Source of the DNA: Chakrabartia godavariana
Lineage (GTDB): Bacteria > Pseudomonadota > Alphaproteobacteria > Sphingomonadales > Sphingomonadaceae
Direction of reading: 5' to 3'
Assembly (NCBI GenBank): GCA_005518185.1
Contig: RKSN01000003.1
Location: 496,001 to 560,000, forward strand
DNA: 64,000 bases
Made by a program: the position numbers and the translations under genes. The notes under the pieces were generated by a model. It made no database searches, had not been told where the DNA came from, and saw only the letters and a program-made list of their open reading frames with translations. Below, piece after piece: positions 50,535 through 62,517 of this stretch (its first letter is position 1; each line of letters opens with the position of its first letter).

Positions 50535-50999
50535 ATGGCTTTTGCCGCACCGCGCGTGGACGCGGAAGGCGCTGCGTCGGGGTTCGATGCGCGTGCCCGC
50601 AAGCTGTTTCTTGAACATCTGGCGCTCACGTCCAACGTGGCCGCGTCGGCGCGCAAGGCGGGTGTGCCCTCCTCGCGAGTCTATGCGCTGAAGCGCCGCA
50701 ATGCGGACTTTGCCCGCGACTGGCAGGCCGCCCTGTGCGAGGGCTTTGCCCGGCTGGAGGCCGAGCTGCTGGCCGAGGCGCTGCGCACCATTTCGGGCAA
50801 GGTGTCCGACGCGACACTCAAGTCGCGGGCGCAGAAGCACCGCCTGGCGCTGGCCCTGCTCGCGATGCACCGGGCCTCGGTGCGCGGACCGGCCAAGTCG
50901 CCAGCCCGCGCCGACCAGAGCGCGGCCCTCGCCGCGCGTGTCGAGGAAAAATTGCGCGACATGCGGGCGCGGCTGAAGGCCCATGACGCGCAAGGCTGA
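50535..50999 (+). CDS. GTA gp1, probable small terminase subunit
   Basis: 154 residues. The N-terminal region ARKLFLEHLALTSNVAASARKAGVPSSRVYALKRR is an HTH typical of small terminases, followed by long helices suitable for ring assembly and a basic tail. In R. capsulatus the first GTA gene has been shown to act as TerS. It overlaps terL by 17 bases. Start at 50535 with GGAG upstream. Preceded by a palindromic element and a candidate operator. Confidence 0.8.
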   Translation: MAFAAPRVDAEGAASGFDARARKLFLEHLALTSNVAASARKAGVPSSRVYALKRRNADFARDWQAALCEGFARLEAELLAEALRTISGKVSDATLKSRAQKHRLALALLAMHRASVRGPAKSPARADQSAALAARVEEKLRDMRARLKAHDAQG

Positions 51000-52302
51000 T
51001 CCCATCGACCATGCGCTCAAGGTCGCGGACCTGAGTGACGCCGCCTTTGCCAGATGGCTGAAAGCCAATGGCAAAAGGCTGGCCACGCTCGCCTTTGACT
51101 GGGCGTTCTGGCGGCGTCCCGATCAGGCCGAACCGGCGGGCGACTGGCGCTGCTGGCTGCTGCTCGCCGGTCGCGGGTTCGGCAAGACGCGGACCGGCGC
51201 CGAATGGGTCCGCGCCCGGGCCGAGGCCGATGGCCGGCTGCGCATCGCGCTGGTCGCAGCGACAATGGCCGACGTACGCGCCATCATGGTGGAGGGCGAA
51301 AGCGGTCTCCTGTCGATCGCGCCCGATGCGACCCGGCCCATTTTTGAACCCTCGCTCCAGCGGCTCGTCTGGCCCAATGGCGCGATCGCCAAGCTTTATT
51401 CCGCCGCCGAACCCGAAGGGCTGCGCGGCCCCGAACATCATATCGCCTGGGCCGATGAATGTGCCAAATGGGATAACGCGTCGACCGTCTGGGACAATCT
51501 GGCGATGTCGCTGCGTCTCGGATCGCAGCCACAGGTGGTTGCCACCACCACGCCCCGGCCGGTCCCGCTGATCCGGCGGCTGCTGTCCGAAGCCGGGGTT
51601 GCAACGACGCGCGGTCGGACGGCCGACAATGCCCTCAACCTCGCCGCGCCCTTCGTGGTGGCGATGCGGACGGTCTATGCCGGAACGCGACTGGGGCGAC
51701 AGGAACTTGACGGGGAACTGATCGACGATGTCGACGGCGCGCTGTGGACGCGGGCGATGATCGAGGCCGCGCGAACGGCGGCGCTGCCGGGTCTTGTGCG
51801 CGTCGTGATCGGGGTTGATCCCCCGGCGGGAACCAAGGGCGATGCCTGCGGGATCGTTGCCGTCGGCCTTGGCGCGGATGGCACCGCCTATGTCCTTGAC
51901 GATGCGAGTCTTTCTGGCGCGTCACCCGAAGGCTGGGCGCGCCAGGTCGCCGAAAGTGCGGCCGCCCATGGCGCCGACCGCGTGATCGCCGAGGCCAATA
52001 ATGGCGGCGACATGGTGGCCAGCGTCCTGCGCGGGGCGGCCCCCGGCCTGCCCGTCCGGCTCGTGCACGCCGCACGCGGCAAGACCGCCCGGGCCGAGCC
52101 GGTCGCGGCGCTCTGTGAACGCGGCAAGGTCCGTCACGCGGACCGCTTTCCCGCGCTCGAAGATGAATTGTGCGGCCTGTGCACGGGCGGGGCCTATCAC
52201 GGGCCGGGGCGATCCCCAGACCGGGCGGATGCACTCGTCTGGGCCGTGACGGAGATGATGTTGAAACAGAGTGGGCCACAACCTCGGATACGGGTGCTGT
52301 AA
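50983..52302 (+). CDS. GTA gp2, large terminase subunit
   Basis: 439 residues. ATPase: Walker A GRGFGKT (63-69) and Walker B in HHIAWADECAKW. RNase H-like nuclease: VIGVDPPAGTKGDACGIV, IAEANNGGDM and SPDRADALVWAV give the acidic metal triad. It pumps DNA into the capsid and cuts by the headful mechanism. Start at 50983, inside the end of gp1. Confidence 0.95.
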   Translation: MTRKADPIDHALKVADLSDAAFARWLKANGKRLATLAFDWAFWRRPDQAEPAGDWRCWLLLAGRGFGKTRTGAEWVRARAEADGRLRIALVAATMADVRAIMVEGESGLLSIAPDATRPIFEPSLQRLVWPNGAIAKLYSAAEPEGLRGPEHHIAWADECAKWDNASTVWDNLAMSLRLGSQPQVVATTTPRPVPLIRRLLSEAGVATTRGRTADNALNLAAPFVVAMRTVYAGTRLGRQELDGELIDDVDGALWTRAMIEAARTAALPGLVRVVIGVDPPAGTKGDACGIVAVGLGADGTAYVLDDASLSGASPEGWARQVAESAAAHGADRVIAEANNGGDMVASVLRGAAPGLPVRLVHAARGKTARAEPVAALCERGKVRHADRFPALEDELCGLCTGGAYHGPGRSPDRADALVWAVTEMMLKQSGPQPRIRVL

Positions 52303-52415: not shown

Positions 52416-52500
52416 CGACGCAGACAACGCGCTCGTCGACAGGCGCAGAGCGAGCGCGGGTCAGACGGCCTGTGCATCAAAAACCTATTTGGAGAATCTC

Positions 52501-53610
52501 ATGAAACTCTTTGGCTGGAAATCGGCCGCCAAGGCCCCGGTGCGCCCGGCGTTGACGAAGGGAATACCCTGGATCAGCGGGGATTGGCCGCGCGCCTATG
52601 AGGTGCAGCTGCGTGAGCTCTATCTGGGCTGCGCCATCGCCCAGCGCGCGGTGCGGCTGGTGGCCGAAGGCGTGGCGTCGATCCCCTTTGTCGCGCGCGA
52701 TGCGGCGGCCGGACAGATGGTGTCGGCCACCTCGGGCGGACAGGCGCTGCTGGAGACGCTGGCGACGCAGTTGCTGCTTCACGGCAATGGCTATGTCCAG
52801 CTGCTCCCCGATCCCGAAGGGCGTCCGGTCGAGCTGTTTGCCCTTCGCCCGGAACGCGTGTCGGTGGAGGCCGATGCGCGCGGCTGGCCGGTCGCCTATC
52901 GCTACAAGGCGGGGGAGGTCGCGACGCTGCTTCCGGCGGATCATGTCATCCATATCCGCACGCACCATCCGCTTGACGACCATTATGGGCTGGGCAGCCT
53001 TGATGCCGCCGCCGGGCCAATGGCCGTCCACCGTGCCGCAACGGTCTGGAACAAGGCGCTGCTCGACAATGCGGCGCGGCCCTCCGGCGCGCTGGTGCAC
53101 GACGCGGCAGAGGCGCTGTCCGCCGACCAGTTTGACCGGCTGCGGGCCGAACTCGACAGCGGTTTTACCGGCGCGCGCAATGCCGGGCGGCCGATGCTGC
53201 TCGAAGGCGGGCTCAAATGGCAGGCGCTCTCGCTGACGCCCGCCGACATGGATTTTGCAACGCTCAAGGCGGCGGCGGCGCGCGACATCGCGCTCGCCTT
53301 CGGGGTGCCGCCCGTGCTGCTCGGCCTGCCCGGCGATGCGACCTATGCCAATTACCGAGAGGCCAATCGTGCGCTGTGGCGCCAGTCGATCCTTCCGCTG
53401 GCCACGAAGATTCTCGACGCCATCGCCGAAGGGCTGTCGGGACATTTTGCCGGGCTGACGCTGCGCGTCGATGCCGATCGCGTCCCGGCGCTCAGTGAGG
53501 ACCGCGAACGCCTCTGGGCACAGGTCACCGCCGCCGACTTCCTGACCGCCGATGAAAAGCGCGCGCTCGTGGGGCTTGCCCCTCTCTCCGACACCGGAGC
53601 CGACCAATGA
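52501..53610 (+). CDS. GTA gp3, portal protein (HK97 family)
   Basis: 369 residues from the ATG at 52501 with GGAG six bases upstream; a TTG at 52489 is less likely. Portal family landmarks: YLGCAIAQRAVRLVAEGVAS, LLLHGNGYVQLLPD, DHYGLGSLDAAAGPM and DIALAFGVPPVLLGLPGDATYANYREA. It forms the dodecameric DNA gate at the capsid vertex. Overlaps the next gene by four bases. Confidence 0.95.
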   Translation: MKLFGWKSAAKAPVRPALTKGIPWISGDWPRAYEVQLRELYLGCAIAQRAVRLVAEGVASIPFVARDAAAGQMVSATSGGQALLETLATQLLLHGNGYVQLLPDPEGRPVELFALRPERVSVEADARGWPVAYRYKAGEVATLLPADHVIHIRTHHPLDDHYGLGSLDAAAGPMAVHRAATVWNKALLDNAARPSGALVHDAAEALSADQFDRLRAELDSGFTGARNAGRPMLLEGGLKWQALSLTPADMDFATLKAAAARDIALAFGVPPVLLGLPGDATYANYREANRALWRQSILPLATKILDAIAEGLSGHFAGLTLRVDADRVPALSEDRERLWAQVTAADFLTADEKRALVGLAPLSDTGADQ

Positions 53611-53918
53611 CCAATTCCAACATGCTCATCCACCTAGCGGCGCAGGCCGAAGCGCGCGGCTCTGACCTCGTGACGCTGCGTGCGATGATCGAGGAGGCGT
53701 CCGATCTGGGGGCGCTCCGCGCGCTCGCCCGGCTTGGCCTGTCGGACGATCATGCCGCCAAGGACATGGCCGAACTGCGGGAGCTTCTGTCGGCCTGGCG
53801 CGATGCCAAGACGACGGTGCGCAAGGCCGTGCTCGGCTGGCTGGTGCGCGGGGCGCTGGCGCTGCTGCTGCTTGGCCTCGCCGTCAAACTGGGGCTTGCC
53901 GGGCTGGTGATCGAGTGA
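53607..53918 (+). CDS. GTA small membrane protein (g3.5 position, DUF6127-like)
   Basis: 103 residues. A helical N-terminal half (LRAMIEEASDLGALRALARL) and a C-terminal hydrophobic helix (GALALLLLGLAVKLGLAGLVI). It lies between portal and protease, the place of the small membrane ORF g3.5 in R. capsulatus. The DUF6127 assignment is from memory and tentative. Function unknown. Confidence 0.75.
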   Translation: MTNSNMLIHLAAQAEARGSDLVTLRAMIEEASDLGALRALARLGLSDDHAAKDMAELRELLSAWRDAKTTVRKAVLGWLVRGALALLLLGLAVKLGLAGLVIE

Positions 53919-54328
53919 CCGGCCCTGTCCGCTTCGCCGGCTATGCCGCCATCTTCGACCATCCCGACCGGGGCGGGGACATTGTCCGCAAGGGCGCCTT
54001 TTCCGGCGCAAAAGCGGGGCTCCCCGTCTATTGGTCTCATGACGTCACCCGCCGCATCGGCACGGTCGACAGCCTTGCCGAGGATGATCGCGGGCTGCGG
54101 GTGACCGCCGTCGTCGATGGCCGCGCCGTCCCCGTCGGGCAGGGCCTGTCCTTTGGCTATCGCGTCCAGGCCGCAGGCACGGCCGGGCCCTATCGCGAGC
54201 TGACCGCGCTCGACCTCATCGAAGTCAGCCTTGTCGCGCACCCGATGCAACCGCTCGCGCGCGTCATCGCAACACACCCCGACTCTGCCGAACCCCCAAC
54301 AGGAGAAACTGCATGGATTATGAAGTGA
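53915..54328 (+). CDS. GTA gp4, prohead protease (HK97 family)
   Basis: 137 residues from a GTG overlapping the previous stop (GTGA). Herpes-protease-like fold: FAGYAAIFDHPDRGGDIVRKGAF, catalytic His in VYWSHDVTRRIG and Ser in LIEVSLVAHPM. It trims the capsid protein during maturation. Overlaps the capsid gene by 16 bases. Confidence 0.93.
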   Translation: MTGPVRFAGYAAIFDHPDRGGDIVRKGAFSGAKAGLPVYWSHDVTRRIGTVDSLAEDDRGLRVTAVVDGRAVPVGQGLSFGYRVQAAGTAGPYRELTALDLIEVSLVAHPMQPLARVIATHPDSAEPPTGETAWIMK

Positions 54329-55380
54329 AGGCCGACGCGCTCGACGCGGCATTTGACGCGGTAGATCTGCCGCCCGTGGTTGCCCACCGCCCGGCGCTGT
54401 CCGGCGCCCGCACGGCGGACCCCGCGCGCGCCGCATTCATCGACGGCTATGTGCGCCGTGGTGCCGACGTCGAACTGAAGAGCTTCTCCGGGGCGACCGG
54501 GCCGGAAGGCGGCTTTGCCGTCCCGCGCGAAATTGACGGCACGATCGACGCGCTGCTGAAGGCCGCTTCCCCCATCCGCCAGATCGCCAATGTCGTGCGC
54601 GTGGGCTCTGCGGGGTATCGCAAGCTGGTGACGCAGAATGGTGTCGCATCGGGATGGGCTTCCGAAACGCAGGCGCGGCCCGAAACGGCGACGCCGATCT
54701 TCAATGAGGTCGTGCCGAGCTTTGGCGATCTCTATGCCAATCCGTCGGCGACGCAGGCGATGCTCGACGATGCGGCATTCGATGTCGAAGGCTGGCTCGC
54801 GGGCGAGATCGCGGCCGAATTTGCCAAGGCGGAAGGCACGGCGTTTGTCGCCGGCAGCGGCGTCAACCGGCCCAAGGGCTTTCTGACCGGGACGCCTGTC
54901 ATCACCGGCGATGCGGGCCGCGCCTTTGGCGTGCTGCAATATGTGCCCACGGGCGCAGCGGGCGCCTTTGCGACCAACCCGCAGGACAAGCTTGTCGACC
55001 TCGTCCACACGCTGCGCGCGCCCTATCGCCAGGGCGCGGTCTGGGTGATGAATGCAGCGACGCTGGCCACCATCCGCAAGTTCAAGACGACCGACGGCGC
55101 CTTCCTCTTCCAGCCGGGGCTTGCCGCAGGGCAGCCCAACACGCTGCTCGGCTATCCGGTGATCGAGGCAGAGGACATGCCCGACATTGCGGCCAACAGC
55201 CTGTCGATCGCCTTTGGCAATTTCAAGGCGGGCTATCTGATCGCCGAGCGCGCCGAAACCAGCGTGCTGCGCGATCCCTTCACCAACAAGCCGTTCGTGA
55301 ACTTCTACGCGACCAAGCGCGTGGGCGGCAGCGTGTCCAACTCCGAGGCGATCAAGCTGCTGAAATTCTCGGCGAGCTGA
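54313..55380 (+). CDS. GTA gp5, major capsid protein (HK97 fold)
   Basis: 355 residues from the ATG at 54313 with AGGAG upstream. The N-terminal helical scaffold-like segment (about 1-60) is probably removed by gp4. HK97 landmarks are GPEGGFAVPREIDGTI, PETATPIFNEVVPSFGDLYA, GSGVNRPKGFL and LLGYPVIEAEDMP. Builds the capsid shell. A strong hairpin follows the stop codon. Confidence 0.95.
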   Translation: MDYEVKADALDAAFDAVDLPPVVAHRPALSGARTADPARAAFIDGYVRRGADVELKSFSGATGPEGGFAVPREIDGTIDALLKAASPIRQIANVVRVGSAGYRKLVTQNGVASGWASETQARPETATPIFNEVVPSFGDLYANPSATQAMLDDAAFDVEGWLAGEIAAEFAKAEGTAFVAGSGVNRPKGFLTGTPVITGDAGRAFGVLQYVPTGAAGAFATNPQDKLVDLVHTLRAPYRQGAVWVMNAATLATIRKFKTTDGAFLFQPGLAAGQPNTLLGYPVIEAEDMPDIAANSLSIAFGNFKAGYLIAERAETSVLRDPFTNKPFVNFYATKRVGGSVSNSEAIKLLKFSAS

Positions 55381-55386
55381 TTGGCC

Positions 55387-55414
55387 GGTCTCCTCGCGCC
55401 AGCGCGGGGAGACC
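55387..55414 (+). terminator. Strong hairpin right after the capsid gene
   Basis: Stem GGTCTCC / GGAGACC continues through a T-G pair into CGCG/CGCG around a CCAG loop: 12 pairs, starting six bases after the capsid stop. No T-run follows, so it more likely stabilises the capsid mRNA end or causes partial termination than full termination. Confidence 0.6.
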
Positions 55415-55449
55415 ACCCCCCTTTCCTGTCCATCTGAACGGAGGCCCCG

Positions 55450-55716
55450 ATGCCCGATCCCTTTGCCGCGTCCGCCGACAGCGTCACCTCGCCCGCCGAG
55501 GATGCCGCAGCACTTGTCCCGCATGACACCAATCCTGTCGTCACCACCCCCAAGGCGCTGTTCGTCGGGACGGGTGGCCACATCGTGCTGCGCGGCATCA
55601 ATGGCAGCGCGGACGTCACCTTCCGCAACGTGCCGAGCGGGTCCGTGCTGCCCGTCCGTCCTGGCTTTGTCCGGGCGACAGGGACGACCGCCGCCGACAT
55701 CCTGGCGCTCTACTGA
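55450..55716 (+). CDS. GTA head-spike base protein (RcGTA GhsA/Rcc01079-like)
   Basis: 88 residues. The pattern is an N-terminal DPFAASADSVTSPA, then ALFVGTGGHIVLRGINGSAD, VTFRNVPSGSVLPVRPGFV and ATGTTAADILALY, matching the spike base family named after R. capsulatus Rcc01079. In that species the spike base and fibre attach to capsid vertices and are encoded away from the main cluster. Here the gene follows the capsid gene directly and overlaps the fibre gene (TGATG). Confidence 0.85.
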   Translation: MPDPFAASADSVTSPAEDAAALVPHDTNPVVTTPKALFVGTGGHIVLRGINGSADVTFRNVPSGSVLPVRPGFVRATGTTAADILALY

Positions 55717-57284
55717 TGACGAGCTTCGGCTTTGAGGCCGGGCTGGCGCTGGCGCAGCGCCGCAGCGGCGGCCCCGCCGGGCCGGTCGCGCCGGTGCCCG
55801 CCAATTACAGCTTCCTCCTCTATGGCGACAGCCGCACCGATGACGGGAAGACGACGTCCAACGGGACGAGCGGCCTTATTCAGGGCACGGCGTCGCTCGG
55901 CTATGCGCCCTGGCTGGAGCTGCTGTCGGGCTATCGGCTGCGGATCGCGCGCAATGCGAACTTCGCGGTGCCGGCCTCAACCACCTATCAGGGCGCGGCG
56001 CTCCCCCGCCAGAACGCGAACGGGGTTGTGACGCCGGGCGATGCCTGGCGGTCCAACGGCGCGGTCAACTTCTCCGACAATAAGGGCGCGGACTTTGCCA
56101 ATGCGCATGAGGCGGGGATTGGCGTGCTGCTCTATGGCACCAATGACCAGATCGTCTCCGATGCCGGCTATCTGGCCGCATCGCGGACCAACATCGTTGC
56201 CATCCTGAACGCGGCGCCCGCCAAGGTCTGGGTCGTCTGCAATGAGCTGCCCAAGGGCGTGAACGACAATGGCACGCTGGGCGGACAGACGGTCAGCGCC
56301 AATTTCAAGGCCTTCTCGGACTGGCTGCTGACGCTCGACCATGCCTCGGGCCATGCCAATGCCCGGGCCAACGTGATCGTCGTCGACACCTGGGGCGAAT
56401 TTGTCGATGCGGCGACCGGTACGCTCTACCGCAACAAGCGCGGCTATCTGCGCGACGGGCTGCACTGCACGGGCTATGGGTCCAAGCGGATCGCGGCGAA
56501 GATCATCGAGCGGCTGTCCGCCATCTGGCCGGGCTGGGGCGCGCTTCCGCCGCAGATCACGCTGCCGACTGCCAATGGTCTGGCAAGCCTTGGGGCGGCC
56601 CAACCCTGCATCATGTCCAACCCGATCTTCACGCCCGGAACGGCGGGGAGCGTGCTCGGCACTTGGGGCACGGCCCCGGTCGCGGCCAATATTCCGCAAG
56701 GCTGGACCGTGTTCATGTCGGGCACCGGCGCGGGGATCAGCTGCACGGCCGAAAAGGGTGTCGAGACCGATCCCGATGGCTATCCGGTGTTCAAGCTGAC
56801 GATCTCGGGCACGCTGGCGGCGAACAGCAGCTGCACGATCCAAGTCTATCAGCTTGCCCCGCTCGCCGCCCTGTTCGCCAGCAACTGGCTGACGATCAAC
56901 GACAAGCTGCGCGGCGTGGCGCGGATGAAGGTGGAGCCGGGCGCCCAATATTTCAGCGGCGCCTCGCTCTCGCTGATCGTGCAGAGCCCGACGACGGCCA
57001 AATATCTGACCGGCTTCACCGGGCGCGGCGGCTCGGTCATCAACATGTCGGCGCCGGCCTTTCTTGAAGCCTATGACGGCGCCTGGCTGCCTTATTGCAC
57101 CGAGGTTCTCGACTTTCAGGATCCGGGCAAGGTCGCGCTCGGGCAGAACATGGCGGCGCAGGCCGACATCAGCCAGATCCAGATCCGCGCCGACCTCGAT
57201 TTCCGCAACCTGACCGCAGCGACGCAGACTGTCGCCGCCACCGTGCGCCTGTCGCGCACCGGCGCGATGCGCGTCGCGGCCTGA
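55716..57284 (+). CDS. GTA head-spike fibre with SGNH/GDSL hydrolase domain
   Basis: 522 residues. An N-terminal anchor (about 1-30) is followed by an SGNH hydrolase domain (about 31-275): block I LLYGDSRTDD with Ser39, block III LLYGTND (141-144), and block V DGLHCTGYGSK with Asp247 and His250. The C-terminal 240 residues are beta-rich, Gly/Ser/Thr-rich and may form a carbohydrate-binding jelly roll. Position after the spike base identifies it as the GhsB counterpart. It could deacetylate or bind capsular polysaccharide of recipient cells; that is inference. Confidence 0.8.
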   Translation: MTSFGFEAGLALAQRRSGGPAGPVAPVPANYSFLLYGDSRTDDGKTTSNGTSGLIQGTASLGYAPWLELLSGYRLRIARNANFAVPASTTYQGAALPRQNANGVVTPGDAWRSNGAVNFSDNKGADFANAHEAGIGVLLYGTNDQIVSDAGYLAASRTNIVAILNAAPAKVWVVCNELPKGVNDNGTLGGQTVSANFKAFSDWLLTLDHASGHANARANVIVVDTWGEFVDAATGTLYRNKRGYLRDGLHCTGYGSKRIAAKIIERLSAIWPGWGALPPQITLPTANGLASLGAAQPCIMSNPIFTPGTAGSVLGTWGTAPVAANIPQGWTVFMSGTGAGISCTAEKGVETDPDGYPVFKLTISGTLAANSSCTIQVYQLAPLAALFASNWLTINDKLRGVARMKVEPGAQYFSGASLSLIVQSPTTAKYLTGFTGRGGSVINMSAPAFLEAYDGAWLPYCTEVLDFQDPGKVALGQNMAAQADISQIQIRADLDFRNLTAATQTVAATVRLSRTGAMRVAA

Positions 57285-57311
57285 TCCACTCTCACCAACG
57301 GGGACACGACC

Positions 57312-57857
57312 ATGATCGAACCGGCGCCGATTCCGGCACCCTTGCTGGCGCCCGCACGCGATGCGGCCAAGACCTATCTGCGGATCGACCAGAGCGCGGA
57401 AGACGCGCAGATTGACCAGCTGATCGCCGATGCCGCTGCGCTGGCCGAAGCGTTCACCGCACAGCAGCTGCTGCAGCGCGATGTCGTCGAAACACTGGGC
57501 GCCGGTTCGGGCTGGCAACGCCTGTCCAGCGCGCCGGTGCGCAGCATCACAGGCGTAGAGGGCGTGCCGGCCGAGGGCGGGCCTTTCCCGCTGCCCGTCG
57601 GCAGCTATGCGATCGATATCGATGCGCATGGGCAGGGCTGGGTGCGGGTCTCCACTCCCGGTGCGGCGGGGCGCATCCGCGTGATGCTGCGCGCGGGGCT
57701 CTCCACCGACTGGGCGGGACTGCCCGAGCCGGTGCGGCTTGGCATCATCCGGCTGACCGCGCATCTCTACACACACCGAGATGCCGCCGATGATGTCGGT
57801 CCGCCTGCGGCCGTCGCCGCGTTGCTCCGCCCCTGGCGTCGGCTGCGTCTGGCATGA
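57312..57857 (+). CDS. GTA gp6, head-tail connector
   Basis: 181 residues. PARDAAKTYLRIDQSAEDAQIDQLIADAAALAEAFTAQQLLQR is the helical start shared by phage gp6-like connectors, and LGIIRLTAHLYTHRD is the conserved last helix. It forms the adaptor ring under the portal. Overlaps gp7 by four bases. Confidence 0.9.
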   Translation: MIEPAPIPAPLLAPARDAAKTYLRIDQSAEDAQIDQLIADAAALAEAFTAQQLLQRDVVETLGAGSGWQRLSSAPVRSITGVEGVPAEGGPFPLPVGSYAIDIDAHGQGWVRVSTPGAAGRIRVMLRAGLSTDWAGLPEPVRLGIIRLTAHLYTHRDAADDVGPPAAVAALLRPWRRLRLA

Positions 57858-58180
57858 GCGGGGAGTTTTCCGGCGCGCTGCGTGAGCGCGTGACCATCGA
57901 GCAGCCCAACCCCGCGCGCGATGCGCTGGGCGGGCGGACCGGCGGGTTTCTTTATGATGGCGCGGCCTGGGCCGCAGTCTCGCCGCTGCTTGCGGCAGAC
58001 GCTGGGGTCGCAGGCGCGCTGTCGGCCCTGCCGCGCTGGTCGGTCACGCTGCGCAAGCGCGAAGGCATCCTGCCCGGCACCCGCCTCGTCTGGCGCGGCC
58101 GCTATCTGCAGGTGCGCGGCTGCATCAGCGACCCGCGCGAACCTGCCCGGATGATCCTGACCTGTGAGGAGACGCGCTGA
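57854..58180 (+). CDS. GTA gp7, head-tail joining / stopper protein
   Basis: 108 residues. SPP1-type head-tail adaptor: LRERVTIEQPNPARDALGG at the N-terminus and WSVTLRKREGILPGTRLVW, ILTCEETR at the end. Beta-barrel ring below gp6. Coupled to neighbours on both sides by stop/start overlaps. Confidence 0.88.
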   Translation: MSGEFSGALRERVTIEQPNPARDALGGRTGGFLYDGAAWAAVSPLLAADAGVAGALSALPRWSVTLRKREGILPGTRLVWRGRYLQVRGCISDPREPARMILTCEETR

Positions 58181-60216: not shown

Positions 60217-62517
60217 ATGGCCTTCTGGTTTGCGACGCCCGGCGATGCGCAGCAGCACGCCCCGCTCAAGCGGTTTGATCCCGCCTATTGGACGGTCAAT
60301 TTCCCGCGCCCGATGATGGCCTCGGTCGTGACCCAAGGCGATCATGGCCTGCGCGTCGATGCCGCCTTCTACCGCGCCAATGATCTGGCGGGTCTGATCT
60401 GGGCGTCGGAGGATAGGGCGGACCATCCGCTCCTCGCCTATGAAACCAGCCGCGACTATCGCGGACTGACCCTGTCATTCCGCTGGCGGTCGGCGGGGGT
60501 GCTGCCGCTCGACGCCGTGAATGGGCCGACGCTCACCATTGAGGGCCGCGATGCCGCAGGCATACCGCGCGCCTGGTATGTCCGGCTGTGGAACTATGCG
60601 CAGGGTACGCCCGAGGACGCGACCGTGACGCTCGACTTCGATGCGCTGGCCGGGGGTTTTGTCCTCCCGGCGGAGGCCGACCCGGTCTGGGCGGGGGACA
60701 TTGACCGGCTGTTCGTCTCGATGGTGCCGCAGGGCTACACCGGCGTTGACGCGCCGCTGGTTGCGCCCGTGGAGGGCTGGGTCGAGCTGGATGGTCTGGT
60801 CTGCGACGGCGCTGCGTCGGTCCTGCAGCTGGGTGACGTCATGGTGCCGCCGCATGGTCGCGCCATCGCGACCGGCTATGATGACAGCTATCACCTGACG
60901 CCCGAGCGGCTGCTGCGCAACGCGCTGCACCTCGGCTATCGCGGATCGATCAACCATTATGTGGGGATGAGCCATTATTTCCGGCTCGACACCGGCGGCC
61001 TTGTCACGCGGACGGGCGGGCCCCTCAACGCCCCGTGCGCGCGCTGGCATGCCGATTTTCTGGCGCGCGCCAAGGCGCTGGACCTGTCGGTCATCCTGTC
61101 GCTGTCCTACGAACTTCTGGCCGCGCATTGTCCGGACGCGTGGCAGCAGCGGGCCTATGACGGGGCACCGGCACGGACCGGCTGGGTGCCGCCGTCGGCG
61201 CTGCTCTCCCCCGCGCATGGTGACGCCATGGCCTATCTTCAGGCAGTCGCGCGCGCCTTTGTCGGGCTTGCCGTTGTCGCCGGGCAGGCGCCCCGCTTTC
61301 AGGTGGGGGAACCCTGGTGGTGGGTCATGCCCGACGGGCGCATCTGCCTTTATGATGCGGCGGCGAAGGCGGCCCTTGGCGGCAATCCGGTCGAGATCGC
61401 GAGCGTCCGCAGCGCGACGCTGACCGCACCGCAAAAGGCGCTGCTCGATGCGGCGGGAGAACTGCTGGCGGCCTCCACACAGGCGCTGGTCGCAGCGGTG
61501 CGCGCCGACCATCCGGCGTGCGAGCGGCTGATCCTCGTCTATCTGCCGACCGTGCTTGATGCCGCCGCGCCCGACCTTGTCCGCGCCAATGTGCCCACCG
61601 GCTGGGCGGCGCCTGCCTTCGATATCCTCCAGCTGGAGGACTATGATTGGGTCACTGCGGGCCAGACCGAGGCGAGCCGCCGGGGCGCAGCGGCGATGGT
61701 GGCGCGGCTCGGCTATCCGGCAGCGCAGCGCCACTACCTCGCCGGTTTCGTGCTTTCCCCCGCCGACCGCCTTCACTGGCGTGCCATCGATGACGCGGCC
61801 GACGCGCACGACGCGGCGGAGACCTTCATCTGGGCCCTCCCGCAGGTGATGCGCGACGGCTTCACCCATTTCAGGATCGGAGACGCACCCATGGATGCCT
61901 TTGACGATGTCGACTTCCCGCTGGCGATCGGCCTCGGCGCCGAAGTGTCACCCACCTTCTCGACGGCGGTCGTGACCACGGCCTCTGGCCATGAGCAGCG
62001 CAACGCCGCCTGGGCGAGCGGGCGGCTGCGGTTCGATGCCGGGCCGGGCGTCCGCTCCGAAGCCGATGTGCAGACACTCCTTGCCTTTTTCCGCGCCCGG
62101 CGTGGCGCGGCCAAGGCCTTCCGCTTCCGCGACCCGCTCGACCACAGCTCCAACGCGATGACAGGCCCGCCGACGCCGGGCGATGTCGTGCTGGGCGAGG
62201 GCGATGGCGCACGCGTCCGCTTCGACCTCGTCAAGCTTTATGGCGAGGGCGACGATGCGGAGGTGCGGCCGATCACGCGGCCGGTGTCGGGGTCGATCCG
62301 CGTTGCGCTGGGCGGGGCCGAACAGGTCACGGGCTGGCGCTTTGCGGACGGGGCGATCCTGTTTGACGGCGCCCCCGCAGCAGGCGTCTCCGTCACGGCG
62401 GGCTTTCTGTTCGATGTCCCCGTCCGCTTTGAGGCCGACCGGCTCGACATTGCGGGCCATCGCCCCGAAGCGGGAGACGTGCCGCACGTCCCGCTGATCG
62501 AGGTGCGCGAGGGATGA
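60217..62517 (+). CDS. GTA gp12, DUF2460 distal tail protein with large N-terminal extension
   Basis: 766 residues from the ATG at 60217. The C-terminal 200 or so residues are the DUF2460 (gp12) domain: DDVDFPLAIGLGAEVSPTFST, FDAGPGVRSEADVQTLLAFF and AKAFRFRDPLDHSS. The preceding 550 residues are extra compared with R. capsulatus gp12 (about 210 residues). They comprise a beta-rich part (1-200) and a probable TIM-barrel-like part (about 205-545) with HYVGMSHYFRLD, LSVILSLSYELLA, QVGEPWWW and FDILQLEDYDW. This layout recalls glycoside hydrolase-like folds; catalytic acids are not proven. Overlaps gp13 by four bases. Confidence 0.88.
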   Translation: MAFWFATPGDAQQHAPLKRFDPAYWTVNFPRPMMASVVTQGDHGLRVDAAFYRANDLAGLIWASEDRADHPLLAYETSRDYRGLTLSFRWRSAGVLPLDAVNGPTLTIEGRDAAGIPRAWYVRLWNYAQGTPEDATVTLDFDALAGGFVLPAEADPVWAGDIDRLFVSMVPQGYTGVDAPLVAPVEGWVELDGLVCDGAASVLQLGDVMVPPHGRAIATGYDDSYHLTPERLLRNALHLGYRGSINHYVGMSHYFRLDTGGLVTRTGGPLNAPCARWHADFLARAKALDLSVILSLSYELLAAHCPDAWQQRAYDGAPARTGWVPPSALLSPAHGDAMAYLQAVARAFVGLAVVAGQAPRFQVGEPWWWVMPDGRICLYDAAAKAALGGNPVEIASVRSATLTAPQKALLDAAGELLAASTQALVAAVRADHPACERLILVYLPTVLDAAAPDLVRANVPTGWAAPAFDILQLEDYDWVTAGQTEASRRGAAAMVARLGYPAAQRHYLAGFVLSPADRLHWRAIDDAADAHDAAETFIWALPQVMRDGFTHFRIGDAPMDAFDDVDFPLAIGLGAEVSPTFSTAVVTTASGHEQRNAAWASGRLRFDAGPGVRSEADVQTLLAFFRARRGAAKAFRFRDPLDHSSNAMTGPPTPGDVVLGEGDGARVRFDLVKLYGEGDDAEVRPITRPVSGSIRVALGGAEQVTGWRFADGAILFDGAPAAGVSVTAGFLFDVPVRFEADRLDIAGHRPEAGDVPHVPLIEVREG

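Follow-up and report, generated by a model that had tools for sequence, protein, structure and literature searches.

A head-spike module with a predicted SGNH/GDSL arm lies within the RcGTA-like gene cluster of Chakrabartia godavariana

Results

Organization of the RcGTA-like cluster and position of the spike genes

The window, that is, the whole stretch of 64,000 nucleotides analysed here, lies on contig C3 of the 3.17-Mb genome of Chakrabartia godavariana. According to the ORF list and profile searches, an RcGTA-like head-tail cluster begins at position 50535, with the gene order terminases, portal, DUF6127 ORF, protease, capsid, base, 522-aa gene, connector, head completion protein, tail proteins, distal-tail protein and hub. 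The genes up to the head completion protein are all encoded on the plus strand. A small-terminase-like ORF (50535-50999; from the ORF list) marks the start of the cluster and is followed by the large terminase gene (50983-52302), whose NCBIfam terminase matches are weak and whose terL orthologues at three other loci (L002-L004) are 85% identical. The portal (52489-53610; TIGR01537, 2e-54), the DUF6127 ORF (53607-53918; PF19622, 2e-27), the prohead protease (53915-54328; PF04586, 5e-14) and the HK97-type GTA major capsid protein of 355 aa (54313-55380; PF05065, 5.9e-86) come next. Directly 3' of the capsid gene lie the gene for an 88-aa jelly-roll head-spike base (55450-55716), a homologue of Rcc01079 (GhsA), and that for a putatively plug-anchored spike protein of 522 aa (55716-57284), coupled by a 1-nt TGATG stop/start overlap (55714-55718). 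The head-tail connector gene (57312-57857; PF05135, 3e-4; phrog_442, 4e-20) forms the downstream border of this slot, and the head completion gene (57854-58180; PF05521, 9e-12) follows it. An earlier note on this DNA had described the two ORFs, their sizes and their overlap, and had placed them between the GTA capsid and connector genes; the ORF list agreed with the former, and the Pfam and PHROGs assignments of the neighbours bore out the latter. Positions 55450-57284 are thereby confirmed as a head-spike module within the GTA structural cluster. Two long ORFs run antisense over the module (55977-57776, minus strand, 599 aa; 54190-55581, minus strand, 463 aa), as is expected at high GC content.

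The cluster encodes further GTA-type proteins, namely an Rcc01695-type distal-tail protein (TIGR02217) and a GTA baseplate hub (TIGR02218). GTA capsid orthologues are present in 260 of 399 Sphingomonadales genomes, and the clusters of this order have been classed as RcGTA-like (PMC6821227). A profile search of the own genome gave no match to GTA_TIM (PF13547), a domain that was seen in a Caulobacter control genome and that is no strict requirement for the RcGTA-like class; since it is missing, the cluster is worded here as RcGTA-like and not as a proven GTA. The distal-tail protein (60223-62517) belongs to the DUF2460/Rcc01695 family (TIGR02217) and is fused to an N-terminal non-contractile tail sheath domain and a TIM barrel (PF23844 and PF23845, E 1e-96 and 1e-158), the TIM barrel of PF23845 standing in place of GTA_TIM.

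The 88-aa protein is a homologue of the RcGTA spike base

The 88-residue protein had been proposed as a spike-base homologue, and the HMM comparison of 55450-55716 with the Rcc01079 family was positive. By phmmer, residues 3-82 matched Rcc01079 (6tb9_E3) at 5.1e-11, and a 63-sequence profile gave 6.8e-16. An AlphaFold2 model built from 63 sequences had a mean pLDDT of 90.1. Its best fold match in the PDB was the RcGTA head-spike base itself (6tb9_A1; Foldseek E 1.4e-7, TM 0.81/0.85), the structural match on which the earlier note had made its reading depend, and the second-best was the spike base of phage Carin-1 (8cjz). These matches, well beyond what chance would give, identify the 88-aa protein as a true homologue of Rcc01079 and thus as the spike base; the genome holds one such gene only. 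In RcGTA, the base forms a pentamer on the capsid vertices, with its N-terminus on the axial domains of the major capsid protein and Glu12 as a cation ligand to the capsid. In the alignment, Glu12 corresponds to Thr13 of the window base, and Asp10 is near-invariant instead.

The 522-aa protein carries the motifs of an SGNH/GDSL hydrolase

No sequence match between the 522-aa protein and Rcc01080 was found, and single-sequence and profile searches against the PDB gave nothing significant. The SGNH blocks GDS, GxND and DxxH are all present in it. Block I (GDSR, residues 37-40; 55824-55835, plus strand) includes the putative catalytic Ser39 and is invariant in 8 close homologues and in the orthologue from congener G839; block III is GTND (residues 141-144; 56136-56147, plus strand), and block V is DGLH (D247 to H250; 56454-56465, plus strand), with the putative catalytic Asp and His. 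The Pfam Lipase_GDSL match of the window protein (0.0018, 18.9 bits) falls below the gathering score of 23.6, and PHROGs assigned it to phrog_6102, lipase, at 9e-18. The G839 orthologue, which occupies the same slot and is 47% identical, passes the Lipase_GDSL cut-off (3e-10, 41.0 bits), and the GDSR, GTND and DGxH blocks are all kept between the two proteins, the first in a GDSR/GDSRL context.

The structural comparison that had been suggested for both proteins succeeded for the base, whereas the AlphaFold2 model of the 522-mer, built from 8 close homologues, reached a pLDDT of 38.6 and was discarded. The SGNH fold assignment therefore rests on the motifs and the homologue. The C-terminal half is beta-rich by prediction, in a low-confidence model. 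Judged by its motifs, the 522-aa protein is an SGNH/GDSL hydrolase with a C-terminal beta region, preceded by a putative N-terminal plug (domain limits approximate), and not a relative of Rcc01080. The view of the second gene as an RcGTA-type fibre could therefore not be upheld, the plug-like N-terminus being the only part in common. Bound to the particle, it would most likely deacylate surface polysaccharide and adhere to it.

An alternating hydrophobic N-terminus recurs behind the base

Residues 2-10 of the RcGTA fibre (IALGLGLGL) form a five-point star in the hydrophobic pockets of the base pentamer (PMC7296036). The N-terminus of the window protein, MTSFGFEAGLAL, has hydrophobic residues at positions 4, 6, 10 and 12 and Ala at 8. 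Its putative plug (55725-55751, plus strand; residues 4-12, FGFEAGLAL), the predicted counterpart of that RcGTA segment, scores 4 on the five alternating sites (F4, F6, A8, L10 and L12) and is weaker than the plug of RcGTA, with Ala at the centre position and Glu7 between sites. A stricter score, which asked for an unbroken run of hydrophobics interleaved with small residues, was less informative on the in-cluster N-termini, and the five-site score was used instead. With this score, which was designed when the RcGTA motif and some of the N-termini were already known and is thus not blind, 14 of 16 distinct in-cluster N-termini reached at least 3 (mean 2.9 and maximum 8 in 2000 shuffles) and 10 of 16 at least 4 (shuffle maximum 3). 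The IMG/VR loci were added after the score had been designed and gave the same outcome: with them, 44 of 55 distinct in-cluster N-termini scored at least 3 (shuffle mean 10.7, maximum 21) and 32 of 55 at least 4 (shuffle mean 1.6, maximum 6).

A -1 offset between the base and fibre genes is shared by 62 of the 78 base loci and by phages RcapNL and P8625. One family (L235, L245 and L042) has a separate plug-pattern ORF of 43-46 aa (MDGLSLSLPAAARRR...) that starts at TGATG and precedes a T4 gp9/10-like fibre gene. In three of the four members of another family (L218, L234 and L257), the protein has no N-terminal plug and ends in a plug-like C-terminus instead (RRGLTLGLNL, RRLSLALSL and RRGLTLGLGF, respectively); like the separate ORF, this is a reading of patterns and no statistical result.

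Distribution and ancestry of the in-cluster module

The base occurs in 78 of the 399 Sphingomonadales genomes, and it lies between GTA capsid and connector in 14, none of which has a second copy; most GTA clusters of the order are without this module. In the genus of the window, 8 of 13 genomes have the GTA capsid: five of these carry the base and the SGNH protein, the slot is empty in one, and another module is present in the remaining two. In the five congeners, the base and SGNH genes run collinearly within the GTA cluster with a 1-nt overlap, at fibre identities of 85% and 47%. The module is therefore not an insertion confined to one strain, the finding that the earlier note had said would count against it. 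A recent insertion was also rejected, as the GC content of base and fibre (0.69/0.67; GC3, 0.83/0.86) matches that of the cluster and the module is common to congeners. A search for plasmid matches gave none. Among 80 base loci of IMG/VR, 58 have a GTA capsid just upstream and a connector downstream, and these 'viral' contigs are therefore GTA clusters.

Where the base is missing, the slot measures 27-280 bp or holds other modules, ORFs with Mtd_N among them; because these are receptor-binding modules, the slot is a receptor-binding hotspot. The commonest alternative, seen in other genera between capsid and connector (L126, L128, L130, L135, L145, L147-L150 and L155-L157), pairs an S74/endosialidase-type spike ORF with a Gp77 fibre-tail adaptor. 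On the base tree, which has 89 columns only and few firm forks, the in-cluster bases need two changes, and their union in one clade is not rejected (p-AU 0.68). The suggestion of a single-locus GTA, ancestral or secondarily assembled, is a conjecture as to the single locus and is narrowed as to the origin: the in-cluster bases are compatible with one lineage, but most clusters lack the module. At L117, in a genome (G498) of a family outside Sphingomonadales, a GTA-related capsid ORF is followed about 0.9 kb on by a base and a 411-aa fibre.

Base copies outside the cluster lie among polysaccharide genes

The base lies outside the GTA cluster in about 64 Sphingomonadales genomes; for a few of these (e.g. 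G097, G170 and G222), the count rests on coordinates or on the lack of a capsid match, not on a reading of the neighbourhood. Pfam assignment of 131 flanking ORFs from 60 of these ectopic loci returned Wzy_C 20 times, glycosyltransferase families 10-12 times each, Polysacc_synt 8 times and Acyl_transf_3 7 times; in 88 ORFs of 20 arbitrary regions of the same genomes, each of these had at most one match. At the ectopic loci L056-L115, the base and plug-bearing proteins are surrounded by genes for Wzy, Wzx and glycosyltransferases. Of the 64 genomes, 19 are without a GTA capsid at E 1e-40. That ectopic base loci are prophages was ruled out by these polysaccharide-gene neighbours, seen by eye and then with Pfam. 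The GTA capsid was present in 45 of 64 genomes with an ectopic base and in 201 of 321 comparison genomes, which is no significant association (Fisher p 0.26). In R. capsulatus, the spike genes lie next to the capsule locus, with which they are co-regulated (PMC10218006). The own genome has Wzy_C beside O-acyltransferase matches in two places, C1:116-118 kb and C2:997-1001 kb; the second also contains ORFs that look by eye like rmlA, rmlD and a Wzx flippase. Because of this adjacency, it is plausible that the host makes an O-acylated polysaccharide.

Different bodies follow the same base

The in-cluster fibres fall into about 12-15 families whose bodies have no BLAST similarity to each other; two of these are singletons (L043 and L201) that may be wrong gene picks and not the true spike gene. 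One family is Rcc01080-like (L036, 7.8e-16). GDSL/SASA similarity appears in at least four in-cluster families, that of the window among them. The matches of L189/L208/L251 (Lipase_GDSL, 7e-4; esterase by phrog), L194 (Lipase_GDSL_2, 4e-4) and L046 (SASA, 9e-4) are sub-threshold, and L196 and L221 have SGNH motif-like matches only, by eye. GDSL domains above the cut-off were found in 4 of 10 ectopic fibres scanned. From these sequences we infer that base and plug would form a general socket and that the body is the part that is swapped. Beyond the earlier note, the analysis re-identifies the fibre as an SGNH protein, extends the scope of the module past one strain, and adds the interchangeability of the fibre, the hotspot character of the slot and the ectopic copies in polysaccharide loci. 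A literature search that lacked several key papers returned no earlier description of an in-cluster spike arrangement; an earlier report is possible.

Discussion

Proposed mechanism and alternative explanations

It seems probable that the pair is a GTA head-spike module in which the base acts as the socket for a plug-docked SGNH esterase arm acting on the polysaccharide of the recipient, with an interchangeable body. Each capsid pentamer would carry five base subunits, and a single 522-aa chain would dock through residues 4-12 in the five hydrophobic pockets, by analogy with the Rcc01080 N-terminus. If the number known for RcGTA is taken, each particle would bear about 11 flexible esterase arms. 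These would bind the surface polysaccharide of the recipient and strip O-acyl, probably O-acetyl, groups from it, and deacylation would loosen or scan the capsule ahead of tail engagement. That surface polysaccharide O-acyl groups are the substrate is a guess.

It is extremely unlikely that the SGNH gene codes for an esterase of the moron or lysis type with no attachment to the particle, its place beside the base being incidental. GDSL lipases are common cargo, and PHROGs puts relatives of the protein under moron/lipase, but the 1-nt overlap and the plug pattern are kept across unrelated bodies, and the gene is always in the slot where others have an Rcc01080-like fibre. A purely polysaccharide-binding fibre, in which an inactive SGNH domain acts as a lectin, is unlikely. 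The RcGTA head spike is known as a binder alone (PMC10218006, PMC7296036), the window domain scores below the Pfam cut-off and many of the other fibres that occupy this slot are not enzymes (Rcc01080-like or LamG-like); however, retention of GDSR, GTND and DGxH at 47% identity is unexpected for a dead domain, and GDSL/SASA similarity is found repeatedly, on several plugged bodies that are unrelated to each other.

Two further explanations concern the particle. Capsid orthologues in 260 of the 399 Sphingomonadales genomes, the GTA-type hub and Rcc01695-family proteins of the cluster, and the classification of the order's clusters as RcGTA-like (PMC6821227) make it very unlikely that the cluster is a cryptic prophage with an ordinary phage head spike, even though true phages also carry base-plus-plug modules, GTA_TIM is missing from the own genome and IMG/VR lists such contigs as viral. 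The ectopic pairs, and by extension the whole family, could alternatively serve the cell surface and not GTA particles, the in-cluster copy having been borrowed from there; the Wzy, Wzx and glycosyltransferase neighbours of the ectopic copies and their lack of a significant tie to the GTA capsid speak for this. We regard it as quite unlikely, given that the capsule-linked copy of R. capsulatus is a proven GTA head spike (PMC10218006, PMC7296036), that the in-cluster bases can be read as a lineage of their own and that the phage copies adjoin head genes.

If the pair is indeed a head-spike module with an esterase arm, the particle would be a GTA whose head is enzymatic and whose docking code is simple, a universal base versus exchangeable arms. 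This would bear on the choice of recipients by GTAs, on the matching of donor and recipient via surface polysaccharide and on why receptor-binding genes evolve apart from the conserved cluster, and it would offer a short peptide tag with which proteins might be loaded onto capsids. A broader proposal seems to us evenly balanced between right and wrong: the base pentamer would serve generally as a docking socket, and the alternating-hydrophobic peptide would act as a portable tag, placed N-terminally, C-terminally or on an adaptor of about 45 aa; sphingomonad GTAs would swap polysaccharide-binding or -modifying head proteins, repeatedly SGNH esterases, and sister modules would travel with the polysaccharide loci that they would recognise.

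Comparison with known systems

The module resembles GhsA/GhsB (Rcc01079/Rcc01080) of RcGTA in its homologous jelly-roll base of 84-88 aa and in that the protein encoded after it has an alternating hydrophobic N-terminus with five points. It differs in that its genes lie within the head-tail cluster, whereas those of RcGTA lie beside the capsule locus, in having a 522-aa SGNH hydrolase body versus the 325-aa Rcc01080 fold, and in that Glu12 is not conserved in its base. The RcGTA head spike recognises polysaccharide in R. capsulatus.

Phage modules of RcapNL, P8625 (Verrucomicrobia), ZHS (Edwardsiella) and immuto (Flavobacterium) are similar in that the base is followed by a protein with a GLGLG-like start (MGLGLGIGLGL, MIGLGLDLSL, MIGLGLNI and MYIGLGISL, respectively). 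This start is absent or weak in Rhizobium RHph_Y25 and Flavobacterium elemo despite a homologous base. The spike base of Carin-1 (8cjz) matches by profile and fold. Unlike the window module, these phage modules belong to full phage genomes and have lectin-like or small bodies, with no SGNH seen. In ZHS and immuto, the base adjoins head genes, as in the window. Base homologues are annotated as 'tail fiber protein' in KP792622/NC_029047, JQ066768, MW353176 and OM621816, and also in phrog_12296. In immuto and ZHS, however, the neighbours of the base are capsid or portal genes, and it is probably a misannotated head protein.

SGNH/GDSL esterases also occur on phage spikes or fibres (e.g. Aristophanes, Possum and Moo19/B2), for which deacetylation of surface polysaccharide has reportedly been proposed or shown (PMC8471582, PMC9569702, PMC11654681). 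In these tailed phages, the esterase is on the tail, whereas that of the window would belong to a head, and to the head of a GTA. The biofilm-degrading tailspike TspA of RcGTA (PMC13420450) is likewise an enzyme against extracellular matrix on a GTA particle, but it is a different protein and is attached to the baseplate.
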